NCBI GenBank assembly: GCA_938074535.1
Contig: CALJER010000017.1
Span: 1-64,000, forward strand
Length of the DNA stretch: 64,000 nt
Direction of reading: 5' to 3'
DNA from: an uncultured archaeon
GTDB lineage: Archaea; Hadarchaeota; Hadarchaeia; Hadarchaeales; WYZ-LMO6
Part shown: positions 16,668 to 21,061 of the stretch, in pieces
How the letters are laid out: each line of letters begins with the position of its first letter
Numbering within the stretch: the first letter of the stretch is position 1
Notes under the pieces: generated by a model
What the model saw: only the letters and a program-made list of their open reading frames with translations
What the model was told of the DNA's origin: nothing
The model's database searches: none
Program-made: the position numbers and the translations under genes

Positions 16668-17531
16668 TCACCCCGAAACGCTCTGGATCAGCTCGGGCAT
16701 CGCCACCTGCTCGGCCTGTAGGTGAATCGTCTTCATGGTGACGCCGGTCATGGTGATGGTGGGCAGCAGATGCTTTGAAATGCTCACGATCCACGGGACC
16801 GAGCTCCCCCTCCACTCCAGGGGTAGCAGACCTATCGCCTTCCCCTTCACGTAGGTGGTGTAAAGGAGAGCGTTCTTCATCTCGATCCTTGGAGAGGACA
16901 TCACGTAGGAACCCGCGGACATGGTGACTCCCTTGGTGCTCATGCCACCCGCCTGAATCTTGGTGGCCTTGACACCGCTGTAGGTGGTCCCCACGATGTC
17001 GTAGCTGGACATGGTGCTGGAGCTGGCCTTCACCTCCACCTCGGAGGGGAAGGTTTTTGACAGGAAACCCTGGACGGAAACATTGGTTCCGCGGAGATAC
17101 AGGGCGTGCATGATCACCCTGGGCAACGTGGCCGGATCCCCCAGCGCCTCCTTGAGGGTGAAGACCCTCCCGGTGTAGGGATCCTTCAGGCCCAGCGGCA
17201 CTTGGTCTCCCGTCCAGGAGATCCCCCCGCCCCATGCTCCCACGTACACCGCATAGATGCTCACGTTCTCCCACACCAGCTTGGATGCCGTGAGCTCGAA
17301 GCCGCTCTGGTACATCCCCGTCACTTCCATGCGCTGGGCGGTGATGAGGGTGCAGGGAATTCCGTTGTAGCTGGATGGAACCATCTCCCACCCCCACATC
17401 TTCACTTCGCTCGCCGTGACCAGATAGCACGCTGTTCCCTGGGCCAGAGCCCCTCCCGCGAAAAGCGTGGAGAGCGGGACCAGGGCCAGCACTAAGCATA
17501 GCCCGGTCGAAACCGATTTCACCGGAACCAC
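16668..17531 (-). CDS. secreted protein with two internal repeats related to neighbouring surface proteins
   Basis: signal peptide; repeats YNGIPCTLITAQRM... and YSGVKATKIQAGGM...GSSVPWIVSISK. Confidence 0.65.
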   Translation of the reverse strand: MVPVKSVSTGLCLVLALVPLSTLFAGGALAQGTACYLVTASEVKMWGWEMVPSSYNGIPCTLITAQRMEVTGMYQSGFELTASKLVWENVSIYAVYVGAWGGGISWTGDQVPLGLKDPYTGRVFTLKEALGDPATLPRVIMHALYLRGTNVSVQGFLSKTFPSEVEVKASSSTMSSYDIVGTTYSGVKATKIQAGGMSTKGVTMSAGSYVMSSPRIEMKNALLYTTYVKGKAIGLLPLEWRGSSVPWIVSISKHLLPTITMTGVTMKTIHLQAEQVAMPELIQSVSG

Positions 17532-17535
17532 TTCC

Positions 17536-18048
17536 TCACACTATCTGGATGTAGGCCTTCATGTTGTCGATGGTGATGGTGGCCAGGGACTGCTTGATCA
17601 CCTTGGCGCTCAGGTTTTCCATCTGCGCGCTGCCTGCCAGCACGTAGACTCCCTCGGGTATGTCCCTCCCCTCCATGGACATGTTGTTCATGATGGCTTT
17701 GCCCGCATTGATCTGGGTAGCCGTCATCGAGAGACCGCTGCCCGCGGCCGCGTCTCCCAGAATCCAGGCTCTCACCGTGGCCCCTCCCAGGTTGAACTCC
17801 CGGAGAATCTTCATCTTCTGGATATTGACGGTCTTCATCTCCGTTACCAGCACGGGTTCTATGAGTCCCCCCTGGACTATCGTGGAGCCGTACATCTTCA
17901 TGTTGTCACCGACCACCTTCTCTGCCGTCAAATCGAAGGTGTACCCTGGGAGGCCGAAGACGATGCCCATCGAGAGGCTCAGCACCAGTATCCCCACCAT
18001 CGAACCCACTCCTGCCACCGAAGCTGCCAAGAAGACTCCTTTCCTCAT
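17536..18048 (-). CDS. DUF6230-like exported protein
   Basis: MRKGVFLAASVAGVGSMVGILVLSLSMGIVFGLPGYTFDLTAEKVVGDNMKMYGS...; start inferred at MRKGVF within the longer ORF. Confidence 0.55.
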   Translation of the reverse strand: MRKGVFLAASVAGVGSMVGILVLSLSMGIVFGLPGYTFDLTAEKVVGDNMKMYGSTIVQGGLIEPVLVTEMKTVNIQKMKILREFNLGGATVRAWILGDAAAGSGLSMTATQINAGKAIMNNMSMEGRDIPEGVYVLAGSAQMENLSAKVIKQSLATITIDNMKAYIQIV

Positions 18049-19199
18049 TCCTTCACCTCTGGGTGTTCTTCGCCGTGGATCGGGGCTCGACCGCTCTCCG
18101 GGGTTGCGGGTTTTTCTCCCCTCCTCTCCACCGACGAGCGCAAGAGGGAATGAATCCTGCCCACCGCCTCCTCCAGCCCACCGCCCCCACCCCTCCTCTC
18201 CGTCTGGGCGGGGAGAACACCCTCCTCCAGGGGTGGGACTTTCTCCTCGCGCCGAACGGGTTCCTCTACTAGGGAGGGGGCCTGCGAAAGCGAGGGGGGC
18301 TGCCAGGCCAGGGCGTGGGCCCCGGCCACGATGGTGAAGAGGGAGGCGAAGACCTCCCCCACCGGCATGGAGAAGAAGGAAACGACGCCCACGACGATGA
18401 ACACCACCCCTATGATGGAGGTGAGGCGGTCCGAACGGAGCCAGAGCATGGCCCCTGCCAGCCCCATGGTGAGGAGGGCCAGGAGAGGGGTGAGGAAGAG
18501 GTCGGGGTGGCGGAGGTAGAGCTGGCCCGGCACCACCCTGCAGGAGGTGAGGATCCAGGCCCCTCCCAGGAAGGCGAACAATATGGCCCAGAAGGGCCAC
18601 CTCTCCCTGAAGCGCCTGAGGGAGGAGAGGGAGTTCAGGAAGAAGGGGACGGAGAGGCAGAGAAGGACGAAGAAAAGCAGCCTGAGCAGGCCGCTGGACA
18701 GGTACCAGGCCGCGGCCAGCCCCACCGAGGGGAGGGCCGTGAGCCCCTCCCTGAGGGTGAGGTGGGGCCTGCTTAACTTCACCTCGGGCATGGCCCAGGT
18801 GAAGGCCAGGAGAAAGAAGAGACTCGCGAAGAGGGCTATGCCCAAGGGGGAGCGGGCGAAGAGGAAGAGGGAACCCAGCCCCGGAATCACCCTGTCCACC
18901 TTTCCCACCACCGCGCTCTTTGGCACCGCCCAGGGATCTGGATCGGGATTGGCGTCCCCCTTGGTGGTGAGGGTCTCCTCCCCCACGGAGAGCACCCGGT
19001 GACAGATGTTTCTGTAGACCACCACGTCGCCCTCCCTTATCTCTCCCGCAGGCTTCAGGAGGACCAAATCCCCGTTGGAGATGGAGGGCTCCATGGACCC
19101 GCCCTGCATCACGTACACCCTTCCCTTCAGCAGGAGGGGGACCGCCAGCAGGAGGGAGAAAAAGAGCAGTATCACCGGCAGGAGCTTTCTCAGGCTCAA
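18045..19199 (-). CDS. type I signal peptidase fused to DUF6114-like membrane module and proline/charged C-terminal tail
   Basis: VMQGGSMEPSISNGDLVLLKP, EGDVVVYR, TKGDANPDPDP S26 motifs; then HPDLFLTPLLALLTMGLAGAMLWLRSDRLTSIIGVVFIVVGVVSFFSMPVGEVFASLFTIVAGAHALAW. Confidence 0.75.
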   Translation of the reverse strand: MSLRKLLPVILLFFSLLLAVPLLLKGRVYVMQGGSMEPSISNGDLVLLKPAGEIREGDVVVYRNICHRVLSVGEETLTTKGDANPDPDPWAVPKSAVVGKVDRVIPGLGSLFLFARSPLGIALFASLFFLLAFTWAMPEVKLSRPHLTLREGLTALPSVGLAAAWYLSSGLLRLLFFVLLCLSVPFFLNSLSSLRRFRERWPFWAILFAFLGGAWILTSCRVVPGQLYLRHPDLFLTPLLALLTMGLAGAMLWLRSDRLTSIIGVVFIVVGVVSFFSMPVGEVFASLFTIVAGAHALAWQPPSLSQAPSLVEEPVRREEKVPPLEEGVLPAQTERRGGGGGLEEAVGRIHSLLRSSVERRGEKPATPESGRAPIHGEEHPEVKE

Positions 19200-20080
19200 C
19201 CCATCTCCACCCCCCTGAGCGTGATTCTACCCCCCTCCATCGAGACCATGTGCATGGTGACGTCGGAGAAGGTGGTGGGGTTTCCCAGGAGCCCCACCGT
19301 CCAGGGTGGAGAGCTCCCTCCCTTCCAGCCGGACTGTACGCGCATGCCGAAGGCGCTGCCCGTCCCCCTCATGTAGGTGACGTAGGCCTGGAGGTTCTCC
19401 ACCTCCATGGAGGAGGCCCACAGCCCCAGCCCCCCTCCCGCCATCTCCTGCCCGGAGATCCTGGCCTTCCTGGCCGTGATGCGGGTGCAGGGCACCCCCT
19501 GGTACTCCACCGGCCCCTCGATGTCATAGTCCCAGAGGGTGACCTTCCCCACCTTCACCCCGTACTCACCGGCGGCCGTGGGGGGTTCGGGTGGCGGCGG
19601 CATCGCCATCATCACGACCGCCGGTGAGACGAGGAACCAGACCCCCAGAACGATGATGAGAAAAACCGCAACGATGAAGACGGAGAGGAAGGCGTAACGC
19701 AGACCGAGCATGAAGGAGGAGGGAAGGGAGAAGACGATCATGAGGAAGACCAGAAAACCGACCAGGGGCCAGAGAGACCAGGAGGGGAGGCGGGAGAAGA
19801 GAACGAGCAGGAGGATGAGGGAGGAGAGCGCGAGGTCGAAGATCAGCCTGTGCCTGTTCACCCTCATCCAGAGGGAAACGTTGAAGCCGAAGAACTTCGC
19901 CCACACCCTGGAGGGGACAAGCCTCAACCGCTGGAGCCTCCTCTCCTCCTCGGGCGGCGTGGGAGGAGGTACCTTCTCCGGGGGTGGCGGGGGGGGTCTT
20001 CCCTCTATCCTCCGCAGGAGCTCTTCTCTCCACGCCTCCCGGTTCTCAGGGTGTTTCCCCCAGGTCCCCAGACCGCCCAA
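19196..20080 (-). CDS. membrane-anchored protein with one copy of the locus-specific repeat domain
   Basis: several N-terminal TM segments; C-terminal YQGVPCTRITARKARISGQ...SSMEVENLQAYVTYMRGTG...GSSPPWTVGLLG. Confidence 0.65.
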   Translation of the reverse strand: MGGLGTWGKHPENREAWREELLRRIEGRPPPPPPEKVPPPTPPEEERRLQRLRLVPSRVWAKFFGFNVSLWMRVNRHRLIFDLALSSLILLLVLFSRLPSWSLWPLVGFLVFLMIVFSLPSSFMLGLRYAFLSVFIVAVFLIIVLGVWFLVSPAVVMMAMPPPPEPPTAAGEYGVKVGKVTLWDYDIEGPVEYQGVPCTRITARKARISGQEMAGGGLGLWASSMEVENLQAYVTYMRGTGSAFGMRVQSGWKGGSSPPWTVGLLGNPTTFSDVTMHMVSMEGGRITLRGVEMG

Positions 20081-20248: not shown

Positions 20249-21061
20249 CTAGTAGAGAGCCTGAGCACCTGCCGCATCACCCGGCTCCAGGGAAACCTTG
20301 CAGGTCTCCCCGAAGTCCGCATAACCGTACATGGTCATGGCCCAGTAACACTCATCATAGAGGTCGTCGAGACCCGTGACGTGACCCGCCTCGTGGGTTG
20401 CTATGTTCTGGAGATCGAAGGCACCGATAAGCGTATATCCAGAACCCTCACCGTCCCGGTCTATCCCCCAGCGGTAGTAGGAGTTGAACACCATATCCGC
20501 GTCCACCAGCTCTCCCGTATCCGTGAGGTACCAAAGGTAGGTTACCGCCACCACCCCCTTCTTCAATCTGCCCCATGTCACCACGTTCTTATAGTCGGGG
20601 CGCCTGGTGCTTGCGCTGGCGAACCTGTCCGTGGTGACCCTGTGGTCGTACAGCTCCACCTCCACCGCCTCGTCCCAGTTCTCGAAGGCCCTCCGGATGG
20701 CTCCCACCACCTCACCTTCCTTCAACCCGTAGGATCTTACTGCCAGGGTGGGATTCACCACGTAAGGAACACCCTTGGGGTATCTGGAAAGATCCCACCA
20801 CACCCCTAGGAGCGCGTAGGCATCCGGATTACCATCGTTATCAGGATCCCCTATTCCCACCACCTCCCCCTGAGCCGAGATCTTTTCCTCCCCCGCATAG
20901 CGGATGAGGATCAATCTGCTCAGCTTCCCGAAGTGGTCCACAACCTTCCGCTTTCCCTCCCACTCCCCTGGGAAGAGGTCTTCCTCCGGAGGAACAGCCA
21001 GAACGGGGGAAGAGAGAGCCAGGAGGAGGAAAAAAACCAGCGGCAAAGCCAGAACCCTCAT
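20249..21061 (-). CDS. secreted matrixin-like zinc metalloprotease
   Basis: signal peptide; HEAGHVTGLDDLYDE; MTMYGYADFGETCKVSLEPGDAAG; DPDNDGNPDAYALLG Ca-loop-like. Confidence 0.8.
   Translation of the reverse strand: MRVLALPLVFFLLLALSSPVLAVPPEEDLFPGEWEGKRKVVDHFGKLSRLILIRYAGEEKISAQGEVVGIGDPDNDGNPDAYALLGVWWDLSRYPKGVPYVVNPTLAVRSYGLKEGEVVGAIRRAFENWDEAVEVELYDHRVTTDRFASASTRRPDYKNVVTWGRLKKGVVAVTYLWYLTDTGELVDADMVFNSYYRWGIDRDGEGSGYTLIGAFDLQNIATHEAGHVTGLDDLYDECYWAMTMYGYADFGETCKVSLEPGDAAGAQALY

Follow-up and report, generated by a model that had tools for sequence, protein, structure and literature searches.

A signal peptidase I fused to DUF6114 among exported beta-domain proteins of an archaeon, and its possible counterpart in enlarged actinobacterial DUF6230/DUF6114 clusters

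Genes of the families DUF6230 (PF19741) and DUF6114 (PF19609) are paired in Actinobacteria, and almost nothing has been published on either: full-text searches turned up a single passing mention of DUF6230 and none of DUF6114. Two further systems come close to the one considered here. In SipW-TasA-TapA of Bacillus, the matrix proteins are served by an additional, dedicated signal peptidase of archaeal-like type that is encoded with them (PMC10269814, PMC9674648), and in the pilus islands of Streptococcus pyogenes the signal-peptidase-like protein SipA is encoded with surface subunits (PMC4049620). The present locus, of four genes named A to D, lies on the minus strand at 16668-20080 of a 64,000-nt stretch of archaeal DNA (contig CALJER010000017.1; hereafter the window, in whose positions coordinates are given). 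It resembles the actinobacterial pair in that both families are present and adjacent, and in that A and D share a beta domain similar to the one at the C-terminus of long actinobacterial DUF6114 proteins. It differs in its divergent sequences and gene order, in the fusion of DUF6114 to a signal peptidase, and in that the beta domain is found in a protein of its own, which may or may not have membrane segments. Four tightly packed, co-directional open reading frames fill the locus:

19196..20080, minus strand: gene A, 294 aa, TTG start; N-terminus rich in proline, hydrophobic stretches at about residues 76-162, C-terminal beta domain
19199..19600, minus strand: beta domain of A, residues 161-294 (hhalign against the actinobacterial domain; AlphaFold2 model)
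18045..19199, minus strand: gene B, 384 aa, TTG start; fusion of signal peptidase I with DUF6114
18813..19163, minus strand: signal peptidase I domain of B, residues 13-129 (TIGR02228 and motif positions)
19095-19097, 18999-19001 and 18954-18956, minus strand: catalytic codons of B for Ser35, His67 and Asp82, respectively
18300..18617, minus strand: DUF6114 domain of B, residues 195-300 (PF19609)
17536..18048, minus strand: gene C, 170 aa; DUF6230-like exported protein, N-terminal hydrophobic segment at residues 3-38
16668..17531, minus strand: gene D, 287 aa, GTG start; N-terminal signal peptide (predicted), then two copies of the beta domain
17037..17441, minus strand: repeat 1 of D (matches A at E 4e-10)
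16671..17036, minus strand: repeat 2 of D (matches A at E 3e-9)

Codon-position composition is coding-like in all four genes, with a GC content at third positions of 0.81-0.86, as expected for genes of this genome. A preliminary reading of the window made from the letters alone (the sequence-only reading) had described four co-directional genes with overlaps of the 4-nt type. The shared direction stands, as do the overlaps of A with B (TTGA) and of B, the DUF6114-bearing gene, with C (ATGA), both of 4 nt; C and D do not overlap and are separated by a gap of 4 nt.

Gene B is a single reading frame in which an archaeal-type signal peptidase I is joined to DUF6114. The peptidase motifs read earlier as S26, GGSMEPSISNGD and KGDANPDPDP, are present, and the profile of archaeal signal peptidase I of the S26B type (TIGR02228) scores 68.7 bits against a cut-off of 51.85. 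A set of Ser, His and Asp residues characterizes the archaeal/endoplasmic reticulum (ER) class of signal peptidases. All three are found in B at the positions expected for this type (Ser35 in GGSMEP, His67 in CHRV and Asp82 in KGDAN), and residues 1-31 form an N-terminal hydrophobic membrane segment. The second module, which the same reading had likened to DUF6114, matches PF19609 over nearly the whole model with 31.9 bits (gathering cut-off 27.9), and with 35.9 bits in a search of the genome. B is an extra enzyme, since the genome holds other signal peptidases: an ordinary archaeal one beside PCNA, TFIIS and exosome genes (contig C44), and a further pair on contig C23. In a tree, the peptidase domain of B forms a long branch for which neither an actinobacterial nor an archaeal source is supported.

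B shares with SipW its archaeal/ER type, its status as an additional signal peptidase and the company of genes for exported beta-rich proteins. Unlike SipW, it scores only 38.3 bits with the SipW equivalog profile, far under the cut-off of 190, and DUF6114 has no counterpart in the Bacillus system; no Pfam match of the TasA/camelysin type was obtained for A, C or D. The locus is best regarded as an analogue of SipW-TasA rather than a member of it.

The product of gene C is probably a divergent DUF6230 protein, as had been supposed. Taken singly, it matches PF19741 with 23.8 bits (E 5.8e-5), under the gathering cut-off of 27.5, although the profile of the archaeal DUF6230 set, C included, aligns with that of actinobacterial DUF6230 proteins at 98.5% in hhalign (score 100; column shuffles at most 17.8), and a relative from the same archaeal family (genome G003) clears the Pfam cut-off with 41.2 bits. 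The corresponding comparison of archaeal and actinobacterial DUF6114 profiles gave 97.5%. The start of C is hydrophobic, with a plausible cleavage site, placed by eye, between VFG and LP. For C alone, AlphaFold2 gave no usable model (predicted local distance difference test score, pLDDT, of 35).

Gene A matched no Pfam or NCBIfam family. D consists of two copies of the domain that ends A, with 29-32% identity (E-values from a one-genome search); its start is hydrophobic, and a clear candidate cleavage site lies between ALA and QG. The initial assignment of A and D as DUF6230 proteins was rejected: by hhalign their domain reaches 83.8% with the C-terminal domain of long actinobacterial DUF6114 proteins (score 38.1; 40 column shuffles at most 18.6) as against 13.7% with actinobacterial DUF6230. 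What the sequence-only reading had grouped as DUF6230-like/repeat proteins are therefore two kinds, C being DUF6230-like, and A and D carrying a third module, so that all three modules have homologues in Actinobacteria. The third proteins of sister loci (157-184 aa) gave 87.8% with the A domain and 0.1% with the actinobacterial domain in profile comparison, and were therefore assigned to neither group. AlphaFold2 predicts an all-beta fold for the A domain, the model being weak (pLDDT 63, predicted template modelling score 0.61). Sequence searches against solved structures yielded no relative of the domain, and a structure search with the weak model yielded no significant match in the PDB; an LptA entry among its non-significant rows was not counted as evidence.

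In Actinobacteria, 54 DUF6230 loci were read, being those matched in genome draws rather than a full census, mostly over 10-14 kb each and with flanks covered to about 6 kb on most sides. DUF6114 adjoins DUF6230 in 53 of them, which bears out the adjacency stated in the sequence-only reading. Six loci (L074, L075, L076, L119, L120 and L122) are enlarged clusters, defined here as having two DUF6114 and at least three DUF6230 genes. All six carry a Lep-type signal peptidase I gene divergent from the cluster, whereas no such gene occurs within the covered flanks of the other 48. An association of signal peptidase I with the enlarged clusters is thus seen, which goes beyond what the letters of the window could tell. 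Five of the six cluster peptidases are complete genes with the serine motif and the KR-containing lysine motif, and all six genomes contain a further signal peptidase gene at some other place. The flanking contexts are of four kinds, alike in L074-L076 (including dnaJ) and different in each of L119, L120 and L122, which argues that peptidase and enlarged cluster move together. Three of the six genomes had been reached through an unrelated SipW-like peptidase query; the gene hit by it was another one, and the choice of genomes therefore did not favour the linked Lep-type gene. These independent data support the existence of a dedicated peptidase for enlarged DUF6230/DUF6114 clusters. Such clusters share with the archaeal locus several exported relatives, DUF6114 and a signal peptidase I of their own, and differ from it in having a separate, divergent Lep-type gene in place of an archaeal-type domain fused to DUF6114; no actinobacterial DUF6114 reading frame was seen fused to a peptidase in the loci read. 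Lep-type linkage on one side and archaeal-type fusion on the other tie two classes of signal peptidase to the same gene set.

That the host is archaeal, as first proposed, is shown by genes for PCNA, a TFIIS zinc ribbon, a Csl4-like exosome subunit and the archaeal/eukaryotic primase large subunit in its genome. DUF6230 was detected in 4 of 394 archaeal genomes (249 genera sampled), all of one family, and in 32 of 148 genomes sampled from a single actinobacterial class. The four are the genome of the window (G000), one of the same genus (G001), and G002 and G003. Among the genomes searched, the gene set is otherwise present only in Actinobacteria and in this same archaeal family. Given this confinement to one archaeal family, lateral transfer between that family and Actinobacteria is likely and is the simplest account. 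Weak DUF6114 matches in other archaea (G033, G038, G047 and G013) were discounted, their reading-frame lists containing neither DUF6230 nor a comparable cluster, and plasmid and viral collections gave nothing useful.

A second locus in the window's genome encodes a coiled-coil protein, a DUF6114 protein lacking the peptidase, a DUF6230 protein and a further, third exported protein. G001 and G003 show the same complete order. In G002 the coiled-coil and DUF6114 genes are the last on their contig, and a DUF6230 match accompanies them. The locus in G001 that is syntenic with the one in the window (L041) encodes A, a 157-aa exported protein, DUF6114 without a peptidase and a DUF6230-like protein. 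Between the two genomes, A is 72% and the genes flanking the locus are 82% identical, the DUF6114 half of B matches its G001 counterpart with 36% over 176 aa, and C is only 20% identical to its counterpart, compared with 77-80% for the second-locus copies. The B/C part of the locus has, on this evidence, evolved fast or been replaced. The fusion is so far unique to the window's genome and does not represent a conserved arrangement, the peptidase being absent from DUF6114 in L041, in the four second loci and in every actinobacterial frame seen.

We consider it moderately probable that the exported beta-domain proteins are matured by a dedicated signal peptidase, with DUF6114 as the membrane platform on which this takes place. 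C and D would be exported by the general secretion route, with N-terminal signals that are either cleavable or anchoring, and A would display the same beta domain outside the membrane from a multi-pass anchor. The DUF6114 part of B would bind the exported proteins as their membrane partner, and its peptidase domain would cut signals on the spot, those of C and D or possibly of the A-type domain. Signal removal may be coupled to release or assembly, the product presumably being located on the cell surface. The observations of the sequence-only reading are confirmed and its interpretation is partly supported; the dedicated processing system that it proposed remains a matter of inference.

Several points weigh against dedicated processing of C and D. 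No peptidase-DUF6114 fusion was found outside this genome, and there is no signal peptidase near the second DUF6114/DUF6230 locus in the four archaeal genomes. The signals of C and D could plausibly be cleaved by an ordinary signal peptidase. As to Actinobacteria, the 48 loci lacking the peptidase gene indicate that it is not essential to the basic pair, and the peptidase gene of L122 is divided over two frames. The enlarged clusters are also few and partly related, and this kinship weakens the nominal significance of the association (Fisher p ~1e-7 on the first 44 loci, from a 6/0 versus 0/38 table).

The most serious alternative is that the fusion is incidental, a spare peptidase domain having been joined to DUF6114 in one lineage, so that B would be a general or redundant signal peptidase with no dedication to C and D. 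This is suggested by its occurrence in one genome only, by the syntenic same-genus DUF6114 protein without a peptidase, and by the DUF6114/DUF6230 loci of three relatives that lack a linked peptidase. However, an unrelated peptidase class is linked to the enlarged actinobacterial clusters (6/6 versus 0/48), and an archaeal-type peptidase with similarity to the SipW profile lies near the same-genus locus. The latter is a 633-aa protein of G001 (94.3 bits with TIGR02228; 71.2 bits with the SipW profile, under its cut-off), encoded about 2 kb upstream of A, in the interval from the metalloprotease-side end of the locus to the conserved gene that comes next. An incidental fusion would need three coincidences, and we regard it as unlikely, though still the strongest competitor.

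A hardly less weighty proposal, likewise unlikely, concerns purpose and is compatible with dedicated maturation. It holds that the exported proteins handle lipid, which they would bind, transfer or hydrolyse as esters, that DUF6114 is their membrane partner, and that the peptidase has a purely maturing role. In two genera, represented by G001 and G003, two-domain proteins of the A/D beta-domain family have a geranylgeranyl-reductase-like flavin adenine dinucleotide (FAD) protein as a neighbour; a UbiA-like protein is also near in G003. Against this, the exported proteins show no catalytic motif or family match, and neither a solved relative nor a significant hit with the weak structural model was obtained. 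Streptomyces DUF6230 proteins were reportedly long annotated as "cholesterol esterase", following Xiang et al. 2007. PMC4098958 cites that paper and lists a secreted protein so annotated, which may or may not belong to DUF6230.

The peptidase domain might instead act as an assembly chaperone and not as a protease. The precedent is SipA, a signal-peptidase-like protein without which pili do not polymerise (PMC4049620), and which like B is encoded together with surface subunits. Unlike SipA, which acts in pilus assembly, B keeps its catalytic Ser35, His67 and Asp82, the actinobacterial cluster peptidases are complete in five of six cases, and no sortase gene was seen in the region read; a chaperone role is accordingly improbable. 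An assembly or binning artefact, conceivable in a draft genome of 53 contigs, is most improbable of all, given that B is a single open frame overlapping its conserved neighbours by 4 nt, that the flanking genes are syntenic with, and 72-82% identical to, those of the same-genus genome, and that the C-terminal part of B still matches the DUF6114 protein there.

Returning to dedicated maturation, the linkage or fusion of two peptidase classes to the same gene set provides a testable idea, that the DUF6230/DUF6114 pair exports and matures surface proteins of the beta-domain kind. From the archaeal fusion, DUF6114 would be the membrane partner; a likely transfer of a surface system between domains of life is added to this. 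A dedicated processing step in DUF6230/DUF6114 systems does not appear to have been described so far. More tentatively, and with rather less confidence than for dedicated maturation, it may be speculated that DUF6230/DUF6114 represents an unrecognised machinery for surface export and assembly. Actinobacteria and one archaeal family would have exchanged this machinery, which would have gained a peptidase at least twice (as a Lep-type neighbour and as an archaeal-type fusion), peptidase and membrane platform forming one working unit.

Some further features were observed around these genes. An exported matrixin-type (M10) metalloprotease is encoded at 20249-21061 (minus strand), directly upstream of A; it scores 49 bits with the profile of myxosortase-dependent metalloproteases, far under that profile's cut-off, and a homologous frame appears to lie upstream of A in G001 as well. 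The 633-aa peptidase of G001 (L079, 2215-7279) consists of an N-terminal membrane part, the archaeal signal peptidase domain and a C-terminal exported domain, and has as neighbours two exported proteins and a DUF5305 gene; this whole group is absent at the corresponding place in the window. Paired small signal-peptidase-like genes about 1 kb apart are conserved in the phylum (contig C23 of G000, L077; contig C1 of G001, L080; L063); the second copy has DWGMG or DWNMG in place of the serine motif GSSM and may be inactive. A further signal peptidase in G003 (L058, 292-1410), with an N-terminal soluble part and a coiled-coil-like C-terminal tail, adjoins a family of related exported proteins (L081). 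The two-domain beta-family proteins beside the FAD protein (L132, 6163-9656; L133, 1-2067) are accompanied by a small exported protein and by a beta-propeller protein of the pyrroloquinoline quinone (PQQ) type bearing an N-terminal hydrophobic segment, in similar order in the two genera.

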